Of a DNA stretch of 52,460 nt, positions 17,440-20,243 are shown one piece after another. Position 1 is the stretch's first letter, and each line of letters opens with the position of its first letter. The notes under the pieces are model-generated. The model was given only the letters and a program-made list of their open reading frames with translations, had not been told where the DNA came from and searched no databases. Source of the DNA: Acidobacteriaceae bacterium (lineage in GTDB: Bacteria; Acidobacteriota; Terriglobia; Bryobacterales; Bryobacteraceae); the NCBI GenBank assembly GCA_019244055.1, contig JAFATG010000266.1, positions 1 through 52,460 on the forward strand, in the 5' to 3' direction. A program made the position numbers and the translations under genes.

Positions 17440-18714
17440 CTAAACCTGCTCTAACGCGTGTTCGAAATCGTTCAGGAGATCTCGCCAATCTTCGATTCCG
17501 AACGAGACCCGCACGAGGCCTTCCCCGATTCCCGCTTCGTCCAGGTCTTTTGCGCTCCAGGCGGAGTGAGTCGTACTGCGCGGATGACACGCGAGAGTCT
17601 CCACTCCCCCGAGCGATACTGCGTTGCGTGCCAATGAAAGATTACGGAGAAAATCGAAAGCAGCCCGCTTTCCACCCTTCAGATCGATTGAAGCCAGGCC
17701 TCCTGGAAAATCGCACTGCTCTTGGAAAATTCGGCTCTGCTCCTTGTCACCGAAGAGCGTCGGGTAATAGACCTTGCGAATTTTCGGATGCCGTGCCAGC
17801 TTTTCGGCGATGCGCTGCGCGTTCTTGCTCTGCCTGTTCATGCGAAGCGTTACCGTAGGCAGACGCGTGTCGAGGATCCAGCACTCGTCGGGCTGCAGGA
17901 TATTGCCGAACAGACTGCGCTTACTGCGGATCTTCGTCATTAATCCCGTGTCTTTGGTCAGCGCAACACCGCCGATGATGTCGCTGTAACCCCCGAGGTA
18001 CTTGGTCGCCGAGTAGATGGAGACGTCCGCGCCAAGTGCCAATGGATGTTGGAAGGCCGGACCCAGAAATGTGTTGTCGATCATCACAATCGGGCGTTCG
18101 TGAGAGGCGCTACCGTTGGTTCCCGGGGGTTCGAGTTTCGCTACCGTTTCGCAGGCCCGCCGGATGTCTGTCATCACGATCGTCGGATTCGCCGGAGTCT
18201 CTATCAAAACTACCTTCAGGTTCTTCGCTGTCCGAATCGCCTGATCGATCGCTTCGCTTTCGCCGGCAGTGACCGGAATGCCGCGAATTCCAAACGGCTG
18301 GAGGAAGCCTTGGATAAGGGTTTGGGTTCCGCCATAAATCGGAACTGTATACAGGATTGTGTCCCCGGGATTCAGGACCGCAAGCAGAGCTGTCATAATT
18401 GCCGCCATTCCGGAGTTGAACACGGCGGCGGCGGAAGCTCCAGGCTCGAGTGGGACGATCTGGTCTTCCAGAATCTGAGCGTTCGGATGATTAAACCGCG
18501 AATAGACCAAATCGACGTTTTCGCCGGGCGAGCGCTGTCCTCGGCCGCCCATCAGGTCGAAAGCGCGTTCTGCCGCTTCCGGACTCGAGAAAACATAGGT
18601 GGAACTACGGAACACCGCAGGACGGGCTGAGCCGACGGACAAACTGGGATCGAAACCGCGCGTCAACACGTCGGTGTCAGGACGGAGTTGGGCTAGTTGC
18701 TTGCTTTCTGCCAA
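17440..18714 (-). CDS. Cys/Met metabolism PLP-dependent enzyme (methionine gamma-lyase / cystathionine gamma-synthase family)
   Basis: This fold-type I PLP enzyme acts in sulfur amino acid metabolism by gamma-elimination or gamma-replacement on homoserine derivatives, cystathionine or methionine. The 424 residues show the family signature around the PLP lysine (SATKYLGGYSDIIGG, about residue 237). Other landmarks are VYSRFNHPNAQILEDQI, FNSGMAAIMTALLA, IETPANPT and the C-terminal LGGVETLACHPRSTTHS. Which reaction it catalyses cannot be decided by eye. The start is TTG (18714), supported by a GGAGG Shine-Dalgarno 9 nt upstream. It sits behind a 220-nt structured leader (18825-18928), which suggests control by a metabolite such as SAM or methionine. 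Confidence 0.88.
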   Translation of the reverse strand: MAESKQLAQLRPDTDVLTRGFDPSLSVGSARPAVFRSSTYVFSSPEAAERAFDLMGGRGQRSPGENVDLVYSRFNHPNAQILEDQIVPLEPGASAAAVFNSGMAAIMTALLAVLNPGDTILYTVPIYGGTQTLIQGFLQPFGIRGIPVTAGESEAIDQAIRTAKNLKVVLIETPANPTIVMTDIRRACETVAKLEPPGTNGSASHERPIVMIDNTFLGPAFQHPLALGADVSIYSATKYLGGYSDIIGGVALTKDTGLMTKIRSKRSLFGNILQPDECWILDTRLPTVTLRMNRQSKNAQRIAEKLARHPKIRKVYYPTLFGDKEQSRIFQEQCDFPGGLASIDLKGGKRAAFDFLRNLSLARNAVSLGGVETLACHPRSTTHSAWSAKDLDEAGIGEGLVRVSFGIEDWRDLLNDFEHALEQV

Positions 18715-18723
18715 GAGAGCAGA

Positions 18724-18761
18724 CCTCCGCCTAGAGTGTAGCTCCAGACGAGCCTTGCTCG
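18724..18761 (-). promoter_or_regulatory. Shine-Dalgarno region and two hairpins before the PLP gene
   Basis: On the minus strand the ribosome-binding site GGAGG (18728-18724) is directly preceded by a hairpin with arms CTGGAG/CTCTAG (18747-18731, one G-U pair). Before that comes CGAGC/GCTCG with a 3-nt loop (18761-18749). These lie in the transcript between the large structured element and the start codon. The CCUCC in the upstream element (18864-18860) is fully complementary to the GGAGG, so it could mask it. This is an inference from base pairing only. Confidence 0.4.
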
Positions 18762-18824
18762 CTTACTATGAAGAAGCGAACCGAGAGACCTTCGGAACCT
18801 TAGCTTTGAGTTTGTTGTTTTTTT

Positions 18825-18928
18825 CTGAAGCTGCGAGACAGGGCCCTTTCGGGCGCCAGGGAGGTGTTGCTTCAGGGGTCTTTCTATGAGGTTAGTCTCG
18901 CTTTGGTGGGAGTTGCCTCCCTGGCTTA
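18825..18928 (-). promoter_or_regulatory. Candidate structured leader RNA (riboswitch-like, pseudoknot-capable)
   Basis: Read on the minus strand, this leader holds three perfect complementary pairs in interleaved order. D is CCAGGGAGG (18924-18916) with CCTCCCTGG (18864-18856). B is GCGAGAC (18901-18895) with GTCTCGC (18839-18833). A is CTGAAGC (18875-18869) with GCTTCAG (18831-18825). The order is D-B-A-D'-B'-A', so B and A alone make an H-type pseudoknot, with D crossing both. Two local hairpins close with GNRA tetraloops in this orientation only: GGGAG-GCAA-CTCCC (18921-18908) and GCCC-GAAA-GGGC (18854-18843). An A7 run follows. This supports transcription from the minus strand, toward the Cys/Met PLP gene. 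I do not recognise it as SAM-I, SAM-II, SAH, cobalamin, 6S or tmRNA. Confidence 0.55.
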
Positions 18929-18934
18929 CTTCCA

Positions 18935-18963
18935 ATACTAGAATATGATTTTACGGAATGCAA
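18935..18963 (-). promoter_or_regulatory. Probable promoter of the structured leader and PLP gene
   Basis: On the minus strand TTGCAT (18963-18958), a 17-nt spacer and TAGTAT (18940-18935) form a moderate sigma-70 promoter. The predicted start (about 18928) falls just ahead of the first arm of the structured element, so the RNA would begin with it. That agreement makes both calls more credible. Confidence 0.45.
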
Positions 18964-19034
18964 GCGTTTTCTATACGTTTTTCAAAAGATTCTCTCGTAT
19001 GCTGGTACGCCTAGCGCCCATCAGGAATTGAGAG

Positions 19035-20243
19035 ATGAAGCTAACCATATTGGGATCAACGGGATCCATCGGTGTTAGCACGCTAGATGTGATCCGACAG
19101 AACTCGGATAAGTTCCAGGTACACGGGCTCGTAGCAGGGCGAAACGTGGAGCGTTTGTGCTCCCAAATTTTGGAATTCCGTCCACCCATTGCCGTTGTCG
19201 CCAATGAAGCGTCATTGGTCGCACTGAACGGTCATCTCGCAGAATCTGGTCTGCCACGCAATAAGTGGCCCCAGCTGATGTCCGGCGATAAAGCTCGTGT
19301 GTTGGCGGCAACCACGCCCGAAGTCAACTTCGTTATGTCGGCTATTGTTGGCGTTTCCGGGATCGAGGCCACTTACGCCGCCATCCGCGCCAAGAAGCGA
19401 ATCGGGCTCGCAAATAAGGAGGTTCTGGTCGCTAGCGGACGCTTGGTTATGGAGGCCCTGCGCGAAACCGGAGCAGAGCTGATTCCGGTCGATAGTGAAC
19501 ACAACGGTGCCCATCAGTGCTTTCGCGCCGGGTCGAGGCAAGCGGTGACGCGCCTTTTATTGACAGCGTCGGGTGGTCCATTCCGCAACACTCCCGTGGA
19601 GGCACTCTGGAATGTCACGCCTGAGGAAGCCTTAAACCATCCGACCTGGAAAATGGGTCGTCGGATTACGATCGATTCGGCCACTCTCATGAACAAGGGG
19701 TTCGAAGTGATCGAAGCCTGCTGGCTCTTTGATCTAGCGCCTTCCAGCGTGGAGGTGATCGTTCACCCTCAATCGTCTATTCACGCCATGCTGGAGTATA
19801 ACGACGGGAGCGTAATCGCGCAAATATCCGCGACGGACATGCGGATGCCAATTCAATACGCTTTGACCTACCCTGAACGTCACCGTGCGCCCGTTCCGCG
19901 GCTAGATTGGACACAACCACGCACCTGGAATTTTTCGGCCCCAGATCTTGAAAAGTTCAGGTTATTGAAACTCGCCTATCAGGCGCAGGAGCGCGGCGGG
20001 TCGGCCACCTGCACCCTGAACGCCGCCGATGAGATCGCAGTCGAAGCATTTCTCGATGGGCGAATTCCCTTCCCGGCAATTGCACTTGTCGTGGAAGAGA
20101 CATTGTCCCGGCAACCCGTCAGGGAACCAAAAACCATCCCGGACGTAATCTCTATAGACCAGGAGTCGCGGGAGGTGGCACGCAGAGTGGTTGCTGAGTC
20201 GCCCTGGGCCAGTTATCAAGGGGCCCACGCGGCCAAAAGCTAA
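19035..20243 (+). CDS. dxr: 1-deoxy-D-xylulose 5-phosphate reductoisomerase
   Basis: Dxr (IspC) is the NADPH-dependent second enzyme of the MEP isoprenoid pathway, converting DXP to 2-C-methyl-erythritol 4-phosphate. The 402 residues start with the NADPH-binding motif GSTGSIGVSTLDV (8-20). The metal and substrate site appears in VDSEHNGAHQC (about 154-164), TASGGPFR and HPTWKMGRRITIDSATLMNK. SIHAMLEYNDGSVIAQ is a further family block. The product feeds hopanoid synthesis among other isoprenoids. It is divergent from the structured leader, with about 70 nt between the leader promoter and the dxr ATG. No strong promoter was recognised for dxr; TATGCT at 18998-19003 is a weak -10. rseP follows on the same strand. 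Confidence 0.97.
   Translation: MKLTILGSTGSIGVSTLDVIRQNSDKFQVHGLVAGRNVERLCSQILEFRPPIAVVANEASLVALNGHLAESGLPRNKWPQLMSGDKARVLAATTPEVNFVMSAIVGVSGIEATYAAIRAKKRIGLANKEVLVASGRLVMEALRETGAELIPVDSEHNGAHQCFRAGSRQAVTRLLLTASGGPFRNTPVEALWNVTPEEALNHPTWKMGRRITIDSATLMNKGFEVIEACWLFDLAPSSVEVIVHPQSSIHAMLEYNDGSVIAQISATDMRMPIQYALTYPERHRAPVPRLDWTQPRTWNFSAPDLEKFRLLKLAYQAQERGGSATCTLNAADEIAVEAFLDGRIPFPAIALVVEETLSRQPVREPKTIPDVISIDQESREVARRVVAESPWASYQGAHAAKS

Follow-up and report, generated by a model that had tools for sequence, protein, structure and literature searches.

A candidate stand-alone RNA gene of the Bryobacterales with a covarying stem and a near-invariant loop

What is the structured element that lies between a Cys/Met metabolism gene and dxr on the minus strand of the window (the whole 52,460-nt stretch of DNA analysed), and does it belong to either gene? 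A preliminary description, made from this one genome, read it as an interleaved, pseudoknot-capable leader RNA of the Cys/Met gene, possibly a new riboswitch. The parts that it named (three interleaved segment pairs D/D', B/B' and A/A', two hairpins, an A7 run and a TTGCAT-17-TAGTAT promoter) are all present on the minus strand at the positions given there. The RNA element itself spans approximately 18928-18843 and its promoter 18963-18935, with the following features:

18958-18963, minus: -35 box TTGCAT; TTGC is conserved at the same distance from P1
18935-18940, minus: -10 box TAGTAT; TANNAT is conserved among homologues
18926-18930, minus: putative transcription start, a few bases ahead of P1, placed by its distance from the -10 box
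18925-18916, minus: 5' strand of helix P1, GCCAGGGAGG, which is D (CCAGGGAGG) extended by one pair; covaries with 18855-18864
18908-18921, minus: alternative 5' hairpin GGGAG-GCAA-CUCCC, mutually exclusive with P1
18865-18915, minus: conserved single-stranded loop, comprising CUCCCACCAAAGCGAGACUAACCUC, a variable linker and GACCCCUGAAGCA; defined by block conservation in homologues
18901-18895 and 18839-18833, minus: B (GCGAGAC) and B' (GTCTCGC), a 7-bp pair in the window
18875-18869 and 18831-18825, minus: A (CTGAAGC) and A' (GCTTCAG), a 7-bp pair in the window
18855-18864, minus: 3' strand of P1, CCUCCCUGGC, equal to D' CCTCCCTGG(C); covaries with 18916-18925
18843-18854, minus: hairpin P2, GCCC-GAAA-GGGC, paired in the alignment; conservation stops just 3' of it
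18825-18839, minus: 3' tail carrying B' (GUCUCGC), complementary to 18895-18901, and A' (GCUUCAG), complementary to 18869-18875
18824-18818, minus: A7 run, read in the window sequence
17440-18714, minus: Cys/Met metabolism PLP-dependent enzyme gene (PF01053), downstream neighbour, outside the RNA unit
19035-20243, plus: dxr (1-deoxy-D-xylulose 5-phosphate reductoisomerase), divergent neighbour, outside the RNA unit

Folding and covariation of the helices

The region folds better than shuffled sequence, in line with the earlier reading of a structured, pseudoknot-capable RNA on this strand. For 18700-18980 the z-score was -3.09, with none of 200 dinucleotide shuffles as good, and for the core (18843-18928) it was -3.74, again with none of 200 shuffles as good; the stretch that includes the tail (18825-18928) folds less markedly (z -2.17; 10 of 200 shuffles as good).

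Comparison with homologues upheld one of the three pairs as a conserved helix, namely D/D'. Together with one further pair it forms the 10-bp helix P1, whose consensus is GCC[AG]GGGAGG with CCUCCC[UC]GGC, and which is paired in 99.6% of cells in the first alignment and in 98.8% in a second alignment, which is broader and has 43 distinct rows. In the latter, five P1 pairs are double-changed, with 22 such cells, values that none of 500 shuffles reaches, while the count of pair types is not above shuffles (453 of 500). Sliding the partners against each other lowers pairing to 49.6-65.3%, and RNAalifold recovers the helix unprompted. Judged by these alignments, P1 is conserved as a helix through compensatory changes. 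P2 is weaker than P1, with 88.9% of cells paired and double changes in two of its four pairs.

The alternative hairpin, which the preliminary description had listed as its GCAA hairpin, pairs the 5' strand of P1 with the adjacent CUCCC. In alignment A4 it is paired in 95.3% of cells and has eight double-change cells, above all 500 shuffles; covarying pairs number one of five, come from one lineage, and are not above chance in their count (476 of 500), such that the covariation of this hairpin is suggestive and rests on that lineage. The position that falls in all three strands reads A-U-U in 31 of 44 rows and G-C-C in 8 of 44. Computed energies favour P1, with a mean of -18.6 kcal/mol for P1 alone versus -11.7 kcal/mol for the best fold that leaves the 3' strand free.

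Promoter, distribution and gene neighbourhood

The claim that the element has its own promoter gained support from its relatives: a -35/-10 pair stands ahead of all 105 aligned homologues, with a spacer of 17 nt in 99 of them and of 16 to 19 nt in all. The commonest -10 variants among the 105 are TATTAT (29), TAATAT (26), TAAGAT (15) and TAGTAT (12). A general promoter scan with a stricter cut-off reported none in the window. As would be expected of a trans-acting sRNA, the promoter, recognized by its sequence conservation, is independent of the adjoining genes. At the other end, the conservation profile drops off directly after P2, and the A7 run is absent from the relatives aligned with the window element. 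In four sponge-associated relatives (L066, L067, L068, L081) a strong long hairpin followed by T-runs lies 3' of the element, with a cytochrome c gene downstream. Terminator-like sites overall, in a scan that misses bulged stems, were not above chance (14 of 122, versus a 9% null).

Homologues occur across the order. In a first search, with a permissive limit (E up to 1) that lets in chance matches, 55 of 60 genomes matched, many of them at E below 1e-20. In a separate scan of named genomes, the matches listed (80 of at least 120 stretches) came mostly from Bryobacterales, Bryobacteraceae or unresolved Acidobacteria. Of 299 genomes of the class, 76 were matched by a covariance model built from 29 sequences (R1); 73 of them belong to the order, and the other three matches (L077, L078, L079; 20.9-29.1 bits) are weak and were set aside as chance, L077 and L079 lying inside long reading frames. 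A second, broader covariance model (R2), run on 257 genomes of the order, found the element in 233, among them 154 of the 163 good ones, and in 79 of 84 genera, and in a sample of the phylum the three matches among 396 all came from the window's own family. An exact-pattern search of viral contigs gave no homologue.

Most genomes carry one copy, and the element region is single-copy in the window's genome; two or three matches were found in 16 of the 233 genomes, some at contig ends. Tandem copies, two or three to a locus (L080:2576-3648, L084:2903-3613, L151:2111-2505), each have their own -35/-10 pair and a different tail. As a separate observation, contigs of metagenome-assembled genomes break inside the element (G002 C110 and C164, G011 C33), and two contigs share one and the same stretch; sequences that are nearly identical between species of one sample may be what breaks the assembly.

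The genes beside the element vary. Over 72 placements, dxr follows on the element's own strand in 38, in two families, and stands divergently in 11; it was not seen in 21, some of which are short stretches or cut by a contig end (two cut; L006 has a cut divergent dxr), and the remaining two are extra tandem copies. The Cys/Met PLP gene is directly downstream in ten placements, all from the window's genus, and in L031 it lies divergently on the opposite side of the element. Convergent genes stand 20-82 nt away in four loci, where Pfam verified an Rce1-type protease (L005, L007), a 2-hydroxyacid dehydrogenase (L073) and an FGE-sulfatase domain (L065), and farther away in two others, likewise Pfam-verified, as a 3-hydroxyisobutyrate-dehydrogenase-type gene (L011) and a DUF2007 protein (L018). 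The usual upstream neighbour, typed in one locus (L015), is 3-hydroxyisobutyrate-dehydrogenase-like. Given such varied neighbours, a stand-alone gene is favoured.

These placements bear directly on the reading with which the locus was introduced, namely that the element controls the Cys/Met PLP gene as a new riboswitch sensing SAM, SAH or a related metabolite. On the one hand, the window has that gene on the same strand, 111-150 nt beyond the element, and it recurs downstream in ten of 72 placements (its product scores 416.1 bits against NCBIfam PRK07049, under the cut-off of 504). On the other hand, those ten are confined to one genus, the loop of the element is just as invariant where no such gene follows, and Rfam returned no riboswitch match. 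The RNA is order-wide, its neighbours are varied and in part convergent, and it does not form the 5' leader of a set of related genes as a riboswitch would; both the assignment to the leader of the Cys/Met gene and the metabolite riboswitch built upon it were therefore abandoned, the latter as very improbable. More generally, the reading of a single genome can tie a well-observed element to the wrong adjoining gene.

A better founded alternative is a cis-acting leader or riboswitch that originally belonged to dxr and used P2 and the tail as its expression platform, the gene having later gone from beside it in some lineages. The frequent adjacency of dxr, downstream on the same strand in more than half of the placements and in two families, is the best argument for it, and P1, the invariant loop and the alternative hairpin together look like an aptamer whose helix can switch. 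Yet dxr is divergent in 11 of the 72 placements and was not seen in 21 (contig ends cut two of these), the genes 3' of the element are convergent in L005, L007, L065 and L073, L080 carries three tandem copies with their own promoters, and sequence 3' of P2 is not conserved. We regard a dxr leader as unlikely.

Loop, tail and candidate functions

The loop of the element is nearly invariant in sequence. Block CUCCCACCAAAGCGAGACUAACCUC is letter-perfect in 106 of 123 homologues and block GACCCCUGAAGCA in 109 of 123, and approximately 40 loop bases are invariant while P1 varies. The 123 were counted from 126 sequences that remained of 162 model or alignment rows after removal of duplicates; left out were L075, a good homologue, and the doubtful L078 and L079, while the doubtful L077 was kept in. 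In this placement helix positions were picked by best pairing, and its pairing scores are for that reason not independent evidence. The loop is about 50 nt long; in 121 of the 123 its length falls between about 46 and 59 nt, the two extremes being one doubtful match and one misplaced helix. A second family of the order has a variant loop (CCCCACCAACGC..., GACCCCUGA).

Could so constrained a sequence encode a small protein, starting from a TTG near 18935? An 80-aa frame does span 18693-18935. However, the linker between the two loop blocks varies from 3 to 13 nt among relatives and not in steps of three, which breaks the frame and argues that the loop is not coding, and the changes in P1 are compensatory rather than synonymous, so that a protein gene here is scarcely credible.

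The 3' tail behaves quite differently from the loop. The preliminary description held B/B' and A/A' to be specific pairs on a par with D/D'; within the window's genus most of the aligned members retain them, though some do not, and beyond the genus they are not fixed pairs, such that, of the three, D/D' alone survived the covariation check in that form. What does recur is complementarity as such. A Watson-Crick complement of at least 7 nt between the tail and its own loop was found in 45 of 109 homologues, as compared with 5.6% for dinucleotide shuffles, 3.7% for reversed tails and 4.6% for the 35 nt that follow the tail. Weighted by genus, over the 57 sequences from 33 genera whose genus label is known, the match amounts to 14.8 of 33 genera, versus 1.07 for mononucleotide shuffles (none of 200 reaches it) and 1.00 for reversed tails. 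This weighting took the place of a clustering of tails by shared 9-mers, in which one cluster chained 89 of the 109 tails and matches of at least 7 nt occurred in 3 of 19 clusters (shuffles 0.7, reversed tails also 3). The partner of the tail within the loop varies (GCGAGAC, GAAGCA, AAGACCC, CCUCUAAA and others). As far as these sequence patterns reach, B/B' and A/A' represent the local form of a tail-loop complementarity whose register moves between genera, and we read the pattern as selection for covering of the loop, with turnover of the register, which would be unusual.

The strand specificity of this complementarity also bears on whether the hairpin might act as DNA, in a recombination or replication site. 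Covariation alone would be the same for DNA and RNA hairpins, and the element occurs mostly once per genome; against this, all 105 aligned homologues have the promoter at a constant distance and in one orientation, and the match of loop and tail holds for one strand only, and we consider a DNA-level site highly improbable.

The best explanation is that the element is probably a stand-alone gene for a small, non-coding regulatory RNA of the Bryobacterales with the loop as its working surface; its transcription and action in trans are what we infer from the comparisons above. A sigma-70-type promoter would start the transcript a few bases before P1, which would join the RNA ends and display the near-invariant loop of about 50 nt, with P2 next. 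The loop could then either use its C-rich stretches (CUCCC, ACCUC, GACCCC) to pair with mRNAs or bind a conserved protein, and the short 3' tail would fold back over it as a lid whose register is free to change. Tentatively, and with somewhat less than even confidence, we propose an undescribed, order-wide RNA class in which a covarying stem shows some 40 invariant loop bases and is capped by its own tail, the lid being selected for pairing anywhere in the loop and not for a single fixed pseudoknot.

Several searches for partners of the loop were made. Loop complements at 314 gene starts (61 of 101 stretches, after removal of duplicates) numbered 8, versus 8.9 with shuffled loops, a weak test that covers, the window excepted, DNA near the element. 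Three 12-nt loop complements match nowhere outside the element in genome G000, and in 17 genomes of the genus the three patterns have 3, 4 and 9 off-element matches, none in G000. Pairing with rRNA was rejected: the longest Watson-Crick match to the 23S stretch of a relative (G162, L258) is 8 nt, and shuffled loops give 7 to 13 nt; a search for 16S in genome G162 found nothing. The sole resemblance in the same sense is that of the loop block AAAGACCCC (window 18870-18890), which coincides over 9 nt with the 23S rRNA of G162 and may be chance. Because the gene-start, 12-mer and 23S tests came out at chance or empty, the loop fits short-seed pairing with mRNA and protein binding about equally well. 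Within the stand-alone reading, mRNA pairing is close to, but short of, an even chance, protein binding is a good possibility below that, and some other role is a minor one.

Taken as an explanation in its own right, an RNA with a housekeeping or protein-binding role, whether 6S-like or some other binder of RNA polymerase or a chaperone, with the loop as protein site, overlaps the stand-alone reading. It would suit an RNA that is near-universal in the order and mostly single-copy, that keeps about 40 loop bases fixed while P1 changes, and for which no target enrichment was found at the 314 gene starts. The partner protein is, however, hypothetical, and 6S RNA itself was rejected, since the genome has a separate 6S-like candidate on contig C356. 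We regard this explanation as possible, at roughly one chance in three. Whichever way the loop works, an RNA found in 233 of 257 genomes with a near-frozen loop points to a central regulator or an RNA-protein particle, in widespread, hard-to-culture soil bacteria whose RNA biology is little known.

Comparison with known RNAs

The earlier statement that the element matches no known fold held when all Rfam families were searched: the whole window gave no match, and the minus-strand region 18650-19034, taken to E up to 10, gave noise at E 4.6-9. Two divergent homologues (L066, L063) likewise had no Rfam match, and a known Rfam family was rejected on these results. Literature on small, non-coding or structured RNA in Acidobacteria, Solibacter, Bryobacter and Bryobacterales yielded nothing naming this RNA. 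Acido-1 and Acido-Lenti-1 (RF01686, RF01687) are, like it, acidobacterial candidate non-coding RNAs, but the Rfam search gave no match to them. The Solibacter-1 motif, outside Rfam, is a candidate RNA in a Bryobacterales genome (Weinberg 2010, PMC2864571, Table 1). The present RNA is new by comparison with Rfam, and Solibacter-1, which we know by its description, may be the same RNA.

SAM and SAH riboswitches are similar insofar as, in one genus, a pseudoknot-capable RNA precedes a sulfur amino acid gene, but the present RNA has no Rfam match, and its link to such genes does not hold in the order at large. With 6S RNA (RF00013) it shares being a small, single-copy RNA gene that is near-universal in its lineage, but it lacks the bulged long hairpin. 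RF00013 has no match in the window, and its sole match in the genome is the C356 candidate (L062, G000:C356:4708-4879, minus strand), which at 40.7 bits is below the cut-off of 46.4 and folds as a long hairpin.

Trans-acting sRNAs with C-rich loops include GsrN in Caulobacter, AbcR in rhizobia and the Rsa sRNAs of Staphylococcus. These have no sequence match to the present RNA, which itself gave no target signal. They are alike in having a stand-alone promoter, small size and C-rich, unpaired stretches resembling an anti-Shine-Dalgarno sequence, and an Hfq gene is present in the genome here. The present RNA differs from them in that approximately 40 bases are invariant, as opposed to one short seed, and in that a long P1 closes the whole loop.
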